Shown here in pieces: positions 28,898-33,732 of a stretch of 55,735 nucleotides of DNA. Source of the DNA: a virus. The stretch's first letter is position 1. The number at the start of each line of letters is the position of its first letter. Both the position numbers and the translations under genes were made by a program. The stretch covers positions 1 through 55,735 of the IMG/VR virus record IMGVR_UViG_3300028790_000007; one strand, given 5' to 3'. Below the pieces are notes generated by a model. The model was not told the origin of the DNA, made no database searches, and was given only the letters and a program-made list of their open reading frames with translations.

Positions 28898-28918
28898 CCC
28901 GGGACCCTACAGGGGGGT
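28898..28918 (-). promoter_or_regulatory. leaderless promoter
   Basis: Minus strand: CTCACCCCCCTG, TAGGGT (28909-28904), six bases, GTG 28897. It overlaps the last codons of the kinase gene. Confidence 0.65.
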
Positions 28919-29524
28919 GAGGTTGGTGTGCAGGGTGCCGCGGGCGGTGCCGATGATGGCGTCGTGGTAGTCGTGGTCGGACACCAGGCGGGCGGCATCC
29001 ACGAGCAGCACCTCCACACCCCAGGCGGAGGCGTGGAGGGCGAGGTTGGCGGCGGCGGTGCGGCGGTTCTTGATCCACGTCTGGTTTTCGGGGCGGTCGA
29101 GGACGCGGGTGCGGGCGGACCGGCGGTGCGCGGCCAGGTTGGGGCCTTGGAGGTGGAGGAGCTGCACCCGCCATCCGGCCTGCACGGCGTCGGTGAGGAA
29201 GCGGCGGTGGGCGAGGTGGGAGCCCTCGGCGAGGATCAGCGACGACTCGCGGGCGGCCTGCCCGGAGTGCAGCCACGTTTCGGCTTCGGTGATGCAGGAC
29301 GCTTCGAGGGCGTCGGTGCCGGAGGCGGATTCGCGGAGGCGGCCGAGTTCGACGGCGCAGCACACGTTGGGGGTGCCGCGGTCGAACAGCAGGTCCCGGT
29401 GGGGGGCTTTGCCGGGTTCTTTCGGCAGGTAGATGCGCTCCCAGTCGGCGGTGATCTCCCGCATGAGGGTGGATTTGCCGACACCGGGTTCACCGGACAG
29501 GTAGACGAGGCGGAGGTCACTCAT
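28907..29524 (-). CDS. P-loop nucleotide kinase-like protein
   Basis: A 205-residue protein. Residues 11-19 (GEPGVGKST) are a Walker A loop near the N terminus, and ...LFDRGTPN... and a later Arg-rich lid (RTRVLDRPENQTWIKNRR) resemble AAA_33/polynucleotide or nucleoside kinase-type proteins. It may phosphorylate a nucleotide, a modified base precursor or a DNA end. It lies about 1.1 kb downstream of the DNA-hypermodification cassette, separated from it by four other genes. The start ATG 29524 overlaps the end of the small gene before it. Confidence 0.65.
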   Translation of the reverse strand: MSDLRLVYLSGEPGVGKSTLMREITADWERIYLPKEPGKAPHRDLLFDRGTPNVCCAVELGRLRESASGTDALEASCITEAETWLHSGQAARESSLILAEGSHLAHRRFLTDAVQAGWRVQLLHLQGPNLAAHRRSARTRVLDRPENQTWIKNRRTAAANLALHASAWGVEVLLVDAARLVSDHDYHDAIIGTARGTLHTNLTPL

Positions 29525-30637: not shown

Positions 30638-31234
30638 TCACAGCGTGGCGCGGCGGACGGTCCGGTAGGCCTCCGCCCTGGCGTGCCCGATCCGATGCGC
30701 CCAGCGTTCGGAGCGGGCACGCAGCGCGCCCGGCTCCACGTAGGGATGCCCGGCCTGGGAGGTGTGCTCGGCGACGGCGTCGAGCTGCCGGGTCAGGGAC
30801 TCCTCCGCCAGCGGCACGATCGTGTCCGGCGCCCACTCGGGCGGGGTGGAGGGGGTTTCGTACTCCACGACGGTGAGGGCGCTGCGGCGGGTCGCGGAGC
30901 GGATGGCGTGGGCGACGGCCCGATGGTCCTGGTGCTCATCGAGGAGCGGGGGCCCGGCGACGATCCGGGCGCGGGTCTGCTCGATGCCCCATTCGATGGC
31001 GGCGATCAGCAGCGGCATGTCCTCTCCCAGCCGCCCATCCTCCAGGTGGCGTTGGATCAGGTCGCAGCCCGCGGCCTTCGCCCCCAGGACGGCCTCCGCG
31101 GCGCGCCCGGTTGTCGCCGCGGACAGGCAGAGGACGGTCGAGGAGGAGCCGAGGAGGTAGGCGCAGCCCAGTTCGGCGTCGTCCGGGTGGGGGGAGACGA
31201 GGAGCGCGCCGTACTCGTTGTCGGGGTATCTCAC
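30638..31234 (-). CDS. PIG-L-type deacetylase
   Basis: A 198-residue protein. SPHPDDAELG (residues 14-23) and DEHQDHRAVAH (99-109) are the two zinc-binding motifs of the GlcNAc-PI/PIG-L de-N-acetylase family. The His and two Asp of HPDD and His104 supply the metal and catalytic residues. It removes acetyl groups from N-acetylated sugars. Because its GTG overlaps the stop of the glycosyltransferase gene, the likely substrate is an N-acetyl sugar placed on phage DNA. It is the last gene of the hypermodification cassette. Confidence 0.85.
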   Translation of the reverse strand: MRYPDNEYGALLVSPHPDDAELGCAYLLGSSSTVLCLSAATTGRAAEAVLGAKAAGCDLIQRHLEDGRLGEDMPLLIAAIEWGIEQTRARIVAGPPLLDEHQDHRAVAHAIRSATRRSALTVVEYETPSTPPEWAPDTIVPLAEESLTRQLDAVAEHTSQAGHPYVEPGALRARSERWAHRIGHARAEAYRTVRRATL

Positions 31235-32007
31235 CGGGCGGCGGCCTTGGGGCGGCGGTCCCGTAGCCGGACCTCGGTGAACGGGCGGGACTTCTTGGCG
31301 GTGTTGACGGAGGCGAGGTCTGGGTAGCGGCGGGCCAGTTCCCGCGCCGACCAGTCGATGCGCTCGGGGGTGCGGGTCGCCTGGAGACCGCCGGGCTCGG
31401 TGTAGTAGTTCGCCCGGAACGTGTAGTAGTCGATGCGGACGACGGCGCCGTCATGCAGGTAGTGCCGGATGGACCGCTCGTAGTCTTCCTTGTCGTCCAG
31501 GGTGACCTGCTGGTAGTCGCCCCCGTCGAGGATCGTCCCGAAGATGCCCGCCTCGATGTAGCGGAGGTCGGTGCGGACTCCGGGCCGCATGAAGTACGGG
31601 TTGGGCACCGGGTAGATGCCCCACAGGGTGGCGCCCGCGGCGCGGCAGTGCCCGAAGCCCTCCTCGAACAGCTCGGGGAGGGAGGCGACCGGCACGGTGG
31701 TCTTCGGGTCGATCCACTGCATCACGTCCGTCAGGTCGTCATCGACCTCCATGACGGGCCCCCGCCAGTTGTCGGCGATGAAGTTGCGGGTCCGCATGAT
31801 GGAGCCGGGGGCGCCGGACACGGCAACAGCAGGTAGGGGCAGGTCGGCGGTGCGGATGGCGTCGGTGTAGCTCGCCTCCTCCTCGGCGGTGCCGACGACG
31901 AGGACCACGTCAGCGGGCCGGACACCGCGGGCGTACAGCAGGGGGAGGGTTTTCCGGGTCAGGCACCGCTCCCGGCGGTAGGACGGGACGATGACGGGGA
32001 TGCTCAC
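31231..32007 (-). CDS. TET-associated-type DNA glycosyltransferase (putative)
   Basis: A 258-residue GT-A-like glycosyltransferase. IPVIVPSYRRERCLTRKTLP (residues 3-22) is the nucleotide-sugar-binding start, VEVDDDLTDV (88-95) carries the metal-binding DxD, and DDKEDYERSIRHY (171-183) fits the acceptor/base region. It resembles the phage family that glycosylates oxidised pyrimidines beside TET/JBP enzymes. GTG 32007 overlaps the stop of the dioxygenase gene, so the two are co-translated. It would transfer a sugar to 5-hydroxymethylcytosine in phage DNA. Confidence 0.75.
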   Translation of the reverse strand: MSIPVIVPSYRRERCLTRKTLPLLYARGVRPADVVLVVGTAEEEASYTDAIRTADLPLPAVAVSGAPGSIMRTRNFIADNWRGPVMEVDDDLTDVMQWIDPKTTVPVASLPELFEEGFGHCRAAGATLWGIYPVPNPYFMRPGVRTDLRYIEAGIFGTILDGGDYQQVTLDDKEDYERSIRHYLHDGAVVRIDYYTFRANYYTEPGGLQATRTPERIDWSARELARRYPDLASVNTAKKSRPFTEVRLRDRRPKAAAR

Positions 32008-32951
32008 GGCGCCATCAGCGCCGGGTCGTCGGGTCCGGCGGCCACGTCCGCCTCGGAGGGGAGGAGCAGCGGCGGGGCGGGGGTGATCGTGTGCGCCCTG
32101 GGATCGGCGGCGAAGCCCTGCCCGGCGGCCATAGTGCGTTCCCGTTCGGTGCGGCGAACCTGGGCGGTACGGGTCTCCTCCGCGAAGGTGTGGCAGTCCT
32201 TCATGCCGCGCAGCGCGTAGTAGACGACGGAGAAGCGGTAGCCGTCCGACCGCGTGAGGCGCATGGGGGTGACGCCGTGGACGAGGGCGTGGCCGCAGAA
32301 GAACACGGCCCACCCGTCCCGGCAGGCCACGGTCAGGTCGTACTCGGGCAGGTGCAGGTGGCCGCCGTCGCAGGCGCGGCGGATGACGGGCATCGCCGAC
32401 CAGGTGGGGAAGTTGAAGCCGTCGCGGTGGTACGGCAGTTGGCTGTTCTGGTTGACGACACCGGAGGTCCAGGTGGTCCCGGCCATCTTCCACTCGGGCA
32501 GGACCTCCCGCATGGTCTCCTCGTCGCGGTCGGCAATCGTGGGGTCGATGCCGCGGAGCATGTCAAGGAGGCGGACGGCGTAGGCGTCAAGGGTGGCCTG
32601 CTCGGCGGGCTGCTCTTTCGCGAAGCTGGTCGAGTTGCAGGCTTCCCGGCGCTGCACGGGGCGGCGCGGGGACCAGCCGAACACGCGGGAGGCGTTGCGG
32701 CGGCCGGAGGCGGCCCGGTACGTCTCCCGGATGTCGACGGCGCGGACGGCCCGGCGGAGGTCCGCCACATCCCCCAGCGGCAGATACGCCAGGACCGGGT
32801 CGCTGGTCTCGGCGTCGGTGAACACGGTCGGGGCGGTGACGTTGGGGACACGCTCACCCACGTCGGTGCCGACCAGCTCCGTGGCGTCCTGGGCGGGCAG
32901 GACACGTTTGACCTCAGTGCGTTCGAGGGCGGCGGTGTCAGCTCTGTTCAT
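32004..32951 (-). CDS. TET/JBP-family 2-oxoglutarate/Fe(II) dioxygenase
   Basis: A 315-residue protein. The Fe(II) ligands appear as H175-x-D177 (YHRDGFNFPTW) and H225 (HGVTPMRL), and Arg239 (GYRFSVVYY) would bind 2-oxoglutarate. GGHLHLPEYD and the C-terminal strands complete a double-stranded beta-helix of the TET/JBP type. Phage members oxidise 5-methylcytosine in DNA to hydroxymethylcytosine. The start is ATG 32951, behind GAGGAGCCCC and inside the end of the ParB-like gene. It is followed by the glycosyltransferase and deacetylase genes, which would act on its product. Confidence 0.85.
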   Translation of the reverse strand: MNRADTAALERTEVKRVLPAQDATELVGTDVGERVPNVTAPTVFTDAETSDPVLAYLPLGDVADLRRAVRAVDIRETYRAASGRRNASRVFGWSPRRPVQRREACNSTSFAKEQPAEQATLDAYAVRLLDMLRGIDPTIADRDEETMREVLPEWKMAGTTWTSGVVNQNSQLPYHRDGFNFPTWSAMPVIRRACDGGHLHLPEYDLTVACRDGWAVFFCGHALVHGVTPMRLTRSDGYRFSVVYYALRGMKDCHTFAEETRTAQVRRTERERTMAAGQGFAADPRAHTITPAPPLLLPSEADVAAGPDDPALMAP

Positions 32952-33732
32952 GGGGCTCCTCGGCGGCCTTCTCGGCGACGGCCTCCGCGGCGGCGACGGC
33001 CTCCTCACTGATGGTCGCATCCGGGGCGGGTGGCTCCTCCCCGGTGCGGTCGGAGACGAGGGTCAGCAGCAGCGCCGAGTTGGATTCGACGCCGAGGTCG
33101 GCGGACAGCTTCGCCATGGACTCCACCACCCAGGCGTACTGGGCGAGGGGGAAGATGAGGGCGAGGAAGCGGGTGGCGCGGGACGCGTACCCGGCCTGGT
33201 ACTCGGCGTAGGAGGGGGTCTGCCGGACGTTGGTGCCGTCGGCGGAGCCGCCCTCCCCGTAGGAGGAGCCGGGGGCGCCGACATGGGCGGCGAGGCCCAG
33301 CGGCTCGTCGGGCGGGAAGTCGGCGTCGGCCTCCTCCAGGGACGCCAGCAGGTCGTCGTAGTCGTCCAGGTCGTAGCCGGTGCCCTCCAGGTCCTCCCCC
33401 AGCTCGCGGAGGAGGGTCACCAGGGCCCGGTCGTCGTAGGTGCCGAGGTCGCTGGTGCGGTTGTCGGCGATGACGATGCGGCGGGCGGCGGCGTCGTCCA
33501 CGTCCAGCCACTTGACCTCCGCCTCTACCCAGCCTTCCTGCTGCATGGCGGCGAGGGTGTTGTTCCCGGCGAGGACGTGGCCGGTGCGGTACTGGACGAT
33601 CAGCGGCCGGTACTGGCCGTTGCGGCGGAGGCTGTCCCGGATGGCGTCGAGGTCCCCGCGGCGGGCGTTGCCGGGGTAGGTGGTGAGGGAGTCGAGCGGC
33701 ACCATCTCAGTGCCGGTGGAGGGTGCGGTCAC
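32938..33732 (-). CDS. ParB/Srx-domain protein
   Basis: A 264-residue protein. Residues 10-95 match a ParB/Srx-type fold (LTTYPGNARRGDLDAIRDSL, QYRPLIVQYRTGHVLAGNNT, then VKWLDVDDAAARRIVIADNR). The rest is acidic, with a helical segment (FLALIFPLAQYAWVVESMAK). In many phages this domain is fused to, or next to, a DNA methylase; here no methylase domain follows. It is co-translated with the TET-like gene and probably positions the modification machinery on DNA or acts as a CTP- or nuclease-type switch. GTG 33732 overlaps the previous stop. Confidence 0.75.
   Translation of the reverse strand: MTAPSTGTEMVPLDSLTTYPGNARRGDLDAIRDSLRRNGQYRPLIVQYRTGHVLAGNNTLAAMQQEGWVEAEVKWLDVDDAAARRIVIADNRTSDLGTYDDRALVTLLRELGEDLEGTGYDLDDYDDLLASLEEADADFPPDEPLGLAAHVGAPGSSYGEGGSADGTNVRQTPSYAEYQAGYASRATRFLALIFPLAQYAWVVESMAKLSADLGVESNSALLLTLVSDRTGEEPPAPDATISEEAVAAAEAVAEKAAEEPHEQS

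Follow-up and report, generated by a model that had tools for sequence, protein, structure and literature searches.

The window, which is the whole stretch of 55,735 nucleotides analysed here, carries a compact gene cassette that probably hypermodifies thymine in the DNA of the phage itself, by a proposed route in which a TET-type dioxygenase, a glycosyltransferase (GT) and a PIG-L deacetylase act in succession. We infer an order of reactions directed at DNA rather than protein. Following replication, the TET/JBP dioxygenase would convert thymine in DNA to 5-hydroxymethyluracil (5hmU) by hydroxylating its methyl group. The GT, a member of the TET-associated glycosyltransferase (TAGT) family, would then place an N-acetylated amino sugar on the hydroxymethyl group, the donor being most simply GlcNAc from host UDP-GlcNAc, and PIG-L would strip the acetyl group to leave a free, positively charged amino sugar. 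The result would be a base related to base J and bearing an amino sugar. The first gene encodes a ParB-like protein, predicted to bind DNA and to assist the modification module, and the likely benefit would be protection from host nucleases. In its most specific form, the proposal that virion DNA contains 5-(amino-hexosyloxymethyl)uracil, a new positively charged base produced by oxidation, GlcNAc transfer and deacetylation, has in our judgement an even chance of being correct.

Table. Genes of the cassette and the nearby kinase, with positions in the window.
Feature	Length	Position	Strand	Start..stop	Remark
ParB-like protein	264 aa	33732-32938	-	GTG..TGA	first gene of the cassette
TET/JBP 2OG-Fe(II) dioxygenase	315 aa	32951-32004	-	ATG..TGA	
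GT-A glycosyltransferase, TET-associated (TAGT) family	258 aa	32007-31231	-	GTG..TGA	
PIG-L/LmbE zinc N-acetyl-sugar deacetylase	198 aa	31234-30638	-	GTG..TGA	
P-loop nucleotide kinase (Ploopntkinase3)		28907-29524	-		PF18751, 1.7e-33; pathway membership uncertain

An open reading frame list, together with checks of start and stop codons, defines the cassette as four overlapping minus-strand genes spanning 30638-33732. The ParB and TET genes share 14 bases, TET and GT share 4, and GT and PIG-L share 4; the gene upstream of ParB (34070-33729) likewise shares 4 bases with it. Third-position GC of the cassette genes (0.92-0.96) is typical of coding sequence in this 73% G+C genome. The record is a linear virus contig of 55,735 bases lacking end repeats, so the absence of a gene from it is not final. 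Genes for terminase, portal, major head protein, tape measure, SSB and an Erf-like annealing protein identify it as a tailed phage. The nearest terminases are those of Rhodococcus and Gordonia phages (35-38% identity), and the host is thus probably an actinobacterium. A Streptomyces host, as assumed in the first-pass annotation, has no support beyond G+C content; the hosts of the nearest phages are Rhodococcus, Gordonia, Mycobacterium and Arthrobacter.

Identification of the four genes as ParB-like, TET, GT-A and PIG-L, overlapping end to start, was originally made by reading the sequence and is confirmed by open reading frames, Pfam, tblastn and predicted folds. Best tblastn E values in cultured phages were 8e-82 for TET, 4e-43 for GT, 1e-26 for PIG-L and 1e-22 for ParB, and the numbers of records with a match were 91 for TET, 20 for GT and 19 for PIG-L. 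Considered with the Pfam and fold results, these gene assignments are far beyond chance. The structure-prediction check suggested in the first-pass annotation was run for TET and GT, whose models matched TET-family enzymes and GT-A transferases, respectively. The metal-binding and catalytic residues named there are invariant or nearly so in relatives, as detailed below for each enzyme.

The TET protein matches Pfam Tet_JBP at E=4.8e-8, slightly under the curated cut-off. It contains the HxD...H iron triad (H175, D177, H225) and 2OG-binding arginine (R239) of TET/JBP dioxygenases, all four residues being invariant in an alignment of 36 relatives, and has Leu247 at position +8 from the arginine. 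Its AlphaFold model (pLDDT 86.5) has CcTet, TET2, NgTet1 and CMD1 as top PDB fold matches, all of which are TET-family enzymes. For proteins of this type (RefSeq gp2 of Nigel, Acadian and others) the label queuine tRNA-ribosyltransferase is widespread, and PHROG 6059, which carries it, matches the window TET (32004-32951) at 1.8e-85. Pfam finds Tet_JBP in proteins so labelled; the label is a propagated misannotation.

The GT combines a PF20691 match, a GT-A fold and an Asp-rich motif, the features of the TAGT family. Its own PF20691 match (E=8e-5) is below the 27.5-bit cut-off, and its homologue Rich gp3 matches the family at 1e-39. Within the DDD motif at 89-91, D90 and D91 are invariant in relatives and D89 is nearly so. 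GT-A matches to the AlphaFold model (pLDDT 92.1) are led by POMGNT1, a UDP-GlcNAc transferase; the list also includes GnT-I, TarS and TarP, among enzymes with other donors, and is not donor-specific. A sequence search of the PDB returned a weak POMGNT1 match alone (E=0.14). PIG-L scored 42.5 bits against a Pfam cut-off of 28.2 (E=1e-10) and has both zinc/catalytic motifs of the PIG-L/LmbE family, HPDD and HxDH, with H16-x-D18-D19 and H101-Q-D103-H104 invariant in 4 homologues. Its profile matches are TT1542, the GlcNAc-malate deacetylase BshB1 and teicoplanin pseudoaglycone deacetylases. The ParB-like protein has no Pfam match at E<=1; it matches PHROG ParB-like families at E values down to 5e-45 and is 33-40% identical to ParB-like genes preceding TET in Gordonia, Mycobacterium, Rhodococcus and Arthrobacter phages.

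Distribution of the deacetylase bears on its substrate. Of 29 records searched for PIG-L, 5 had the gene, each of them GT-type; it was found in none of the six records in which TET is paired with an amino acid:DNA transferase (ADDT) or a kinase. Confinement to GT-type operons fits deacetylation of the sugar transferred by GT and, in combination with GlcNAc-type profile matches and the GT fold, suggests that an N-acetyl sugar is transferred and then deacetylated. No nucleotide-sugar gene was found among the window genes scanned, which are part of the gene set, and this fits use of host UDP-GlcNAc. The literature searched yielded no report of amino-sugar DNA or of DNA modification involving a phage glucosaminyl deacetylase, and the predicted product of the cassette is apparently uncharacterised. 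One IMG/VR contig (L008, 9360-12600) displays a variant gene order of ParB, GT, a weak TET match and PIG-L.

Thymine is favoured over cytosine as the modified base because C5-methyltransferase genes were not found in this record or in seven complete relatives, ADDT occurs in sister operons, and Leu or Ile occupies the base-contact position in most TETs of the clade. The closest cultured TET, Tonitrus gp3 (47% identical), lies in a five-gene thymine hypermodification system (PMC11955845). The enzyme following TET in Tonitrus is ADDT (PF18724). Among 93 TET loci, 27 have ADDT and 20 have GT, and the two never co-occur (chance 4e-4, relatedness ignored). The cassette lacks the ADDT/aGPT-PPlase of thymidine hypermodification operons, and GT and PIG-L occupy its slot. 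On the TET tree, ADDT and GT types are interspersed, with 7 changes of which at least 4 are forced, and a single GT clade is rejected (p=1e-70). One ADDT-type locus (L007) groups with a GT-type locus (L009; support 99/93), and another (L176) groups with the TETs of Arthrobacter GT-PIG-L phages (support 100/100). Bacterial genomes provided 3 TET matches, all ADDT- or kinase-type. The interspersion of ADDT and GT types suggests that a single TET activity probably supplies both branches. ADDT is reported to act on a 5hmU-derived base (Lee et al. 2018, 2022). If it does, the simplest reading of the shared lineages is that the TET lineage of the window always makes 5hmU; in principle, a TET lineage could change base.

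The main alternative is that 5mC, made by the host or by an unseen phage methyltransferase, is oxidized to 5hmC, which is then glycosylated and deacetylated. Phage TETs characterised by Burke et al. in 2021 are said to be 5mC dioxygenases that work together with a phage C5-methyltransferase, in clusters that include glycosyltransferases. Host 5mC could serve as substrate, and a methyltransferase gene could be missing from a linear contig without end repeats. Nonetheless, we consider the cytosine route unlikely. C5-cytosine methyltransferase (PF00145) was found neither in this possibly incomplete record nor in any of 7 complete relatives, including the whole-cassette carriers Rich, Altadena and Lilmac1015, by a search that was positive in 10 of 14 control genomes; 6 of 49 further records had the gene. 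Genes of this type are present in 5 related IMG/VR records and do not lie beside TET where they could be located. One of these records, L055, has TET-GT-PIG-L, and its methyltransferase gene lies ~5 kb away on the opposite strand. Presence of a methyltransferase on a contig showed no association with the base-contact residue, and the same TET lineages are common to ADDT-type operons. L010, tried as a route to the 5mC-type TETs, appears to derive from a large virus of eukaryotic type, and no TET was seen in it; on this contig (7783-10090), a TAGT-like glycosyltransferase directly follows a C5-methyltransferase-like gene. TETs of the MED4-184 type were too distant to help with the question of the base. 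In that cyanophage (L091, 4614-5255), a 'DNA methylase' near TET reads as ParB-like, making a ParB-TET pair.

Substrate choice may also be reflected in the residue that contacts the base, which is His1904 in TET2, His297 in NgTet1 and Arg393 in CcTet (PMC11040006). This position lies eight residues after the 2OG arginine. Of 91 readable TETs, 80 have Leu there, 9 have Lys and 2 have Ile; the His or Arg of 5mC-type TETs occurs in none, and the window has Leu. Because the comparison covers TETs and no JBP sequence, the residue is weak evidence for thymine on its own. The Lys-bearing TETs form a subclade (L045, L046, L060, L068-L071, L088, L089) whose substrate may differ. The first-pass annotation had proposed that the pathway starts with conversion of 5mC to 5hmC. 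Lack of a C5-methyltransferase, occurrence of ADDT in the TET clade and lack of the polar base-contact residue of solved 5mC dioxygenases speak against this start, while the oxygenase, GT and PIG-L logic of the hypermodification cassette stands on domains, gene order and restriction of PIG-L to GT-type operons. The description of the cassette as complete-looking is accordingly apt for a thymine route and not for a cytosine route.

Participation of the nearby kinase in the pathway, with additional phosphorylation of 5hmU or the amino sugar, is a doubtful extension of the thymine route. The kinase shares 48% identity with Tonitrus gp7, which is named a 5-hmU DNA kinase (PMC11955845); in 23 loci a homologue is paired with ADDT, and another homologue, Rich gp5, directly follows PIG-L. 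However, the complete TET-GT-PIG-L phages Altadena and Lilmac1015 have no kinase. A homologue adjoins terminase in Newman (Pegunavirus), where there is no neighbouring TET, and also in the preQ0-type phage Saguaro, such that the kinase may belong to packaging. These occurrences beside terminase also led us to reject the kinase as proof of thymine chemistry. PF18751 P-loop kinases (window 28907-29524, Nigel gp3, Newman gp1) carry the labels terminase small subunit or adenylate kinase.

ParB-like genes accompany 89 of 93 TETs. Saguaro gp1 is also ParB-like (40% identical to the window protein over the N-terminal part) and precedes a queuine/preQ0-type cassette; thus, ParB seems to be shared by modification modules that differ in their chemistry. 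PreQ0 has been measured in DNA of the related phage Rosebush (PMC6884629). Comparison of Saguaro (L179, 1-4772) with Rich (L002, 1-3594) revealed that the Bclasvirinae slot between ParB and kinase/terminase holds either TET-GT-PIG-L or a queuine/QueC/QueD/QueE/GTP cyclohydrolase set, indicative of modification chemistries swapped in place.

That GT and PIG-L instead act on structural proteins of the phage or on a glycan of the host, with TET alone acting on DNA, has a precedent in mycobacteriophages, whose own glycosyltransferases are reported to glycosylate capsid and tail proteins (PMC12363180), but is improbable for a GT that belongs to a TET-associated family, shares 4 bases with TET and occupies the place of ADDT in sister operons.

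If the proposed thymine route is correct, bacterial viruses make a base-J-like nucleotide bearing a free amino sugar, and a single TET lineage supplies two tailoring branches that can replace each other, one adding an amino acid (ADDT) and the other a sugar (GT). Gene context would then provide a rule by which the substrate of a phage TET, thymine or cytosine, could be predicted, and the enzymes could serve as tools to attach charged sugars to DNA. Cultured relatives with the same cassette, whose hosts are non-pathogenic, make the proposed base directly testable.

The cassette is already known from cultured phages of Mycobacterium (Acadianvirus) and Arthrobacter, and the window is a further member. 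Acadianvirus phages (Acadian, Rich, Baee) encode ParB, TET, GT and PIG-L in the same order within gp1-gp5, with 35-50% identity per protein. Their P-loop kinase gene directly follows PIG-L, whereas that of the window is 1.1 kb beyond it. No measured DNA modification of Acadianvirus phages was found in the literature searched. The Arthrobacter phages Altadena and Lilmac1015 also have ParB, TET, GT and PIG-L in order, the last three annotated as Tet-like J-binding protein/oxidoreductase, glycosyltransferase and glucosaminyl deacetylase. They differ from the window in having a short additional gene between ParB and TET and a genome devoid of the kinase. PIG-L in the Acadianvirus and Arthrobacter records is mostly annotated as glucosaminyl deacetylase. 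The phage clusters of Burke et al. resemble the window in uniting TET and glycosyltransferase; they reportedly act on cytosine methylated by a phage methyltransferase, none of which was found in the window record. The operon of the Rhodococcus phage Tonitrus (PMC11955845) shares ParB, TET and a homologous kinase with the window, and has an amino acid:DNA transferase and an additional enzyme where the window has GT and PIG-L. Base J of kinetoplastids, formed by JBP1/JBP2 and a glucosyltransferase, follows a similar logic, a likeness drawn independently of sequence comparison: thymine is oxidized in DNA and then glycosylated, as proposed here, although the sugar of base J is glucose and is not deacetylated.
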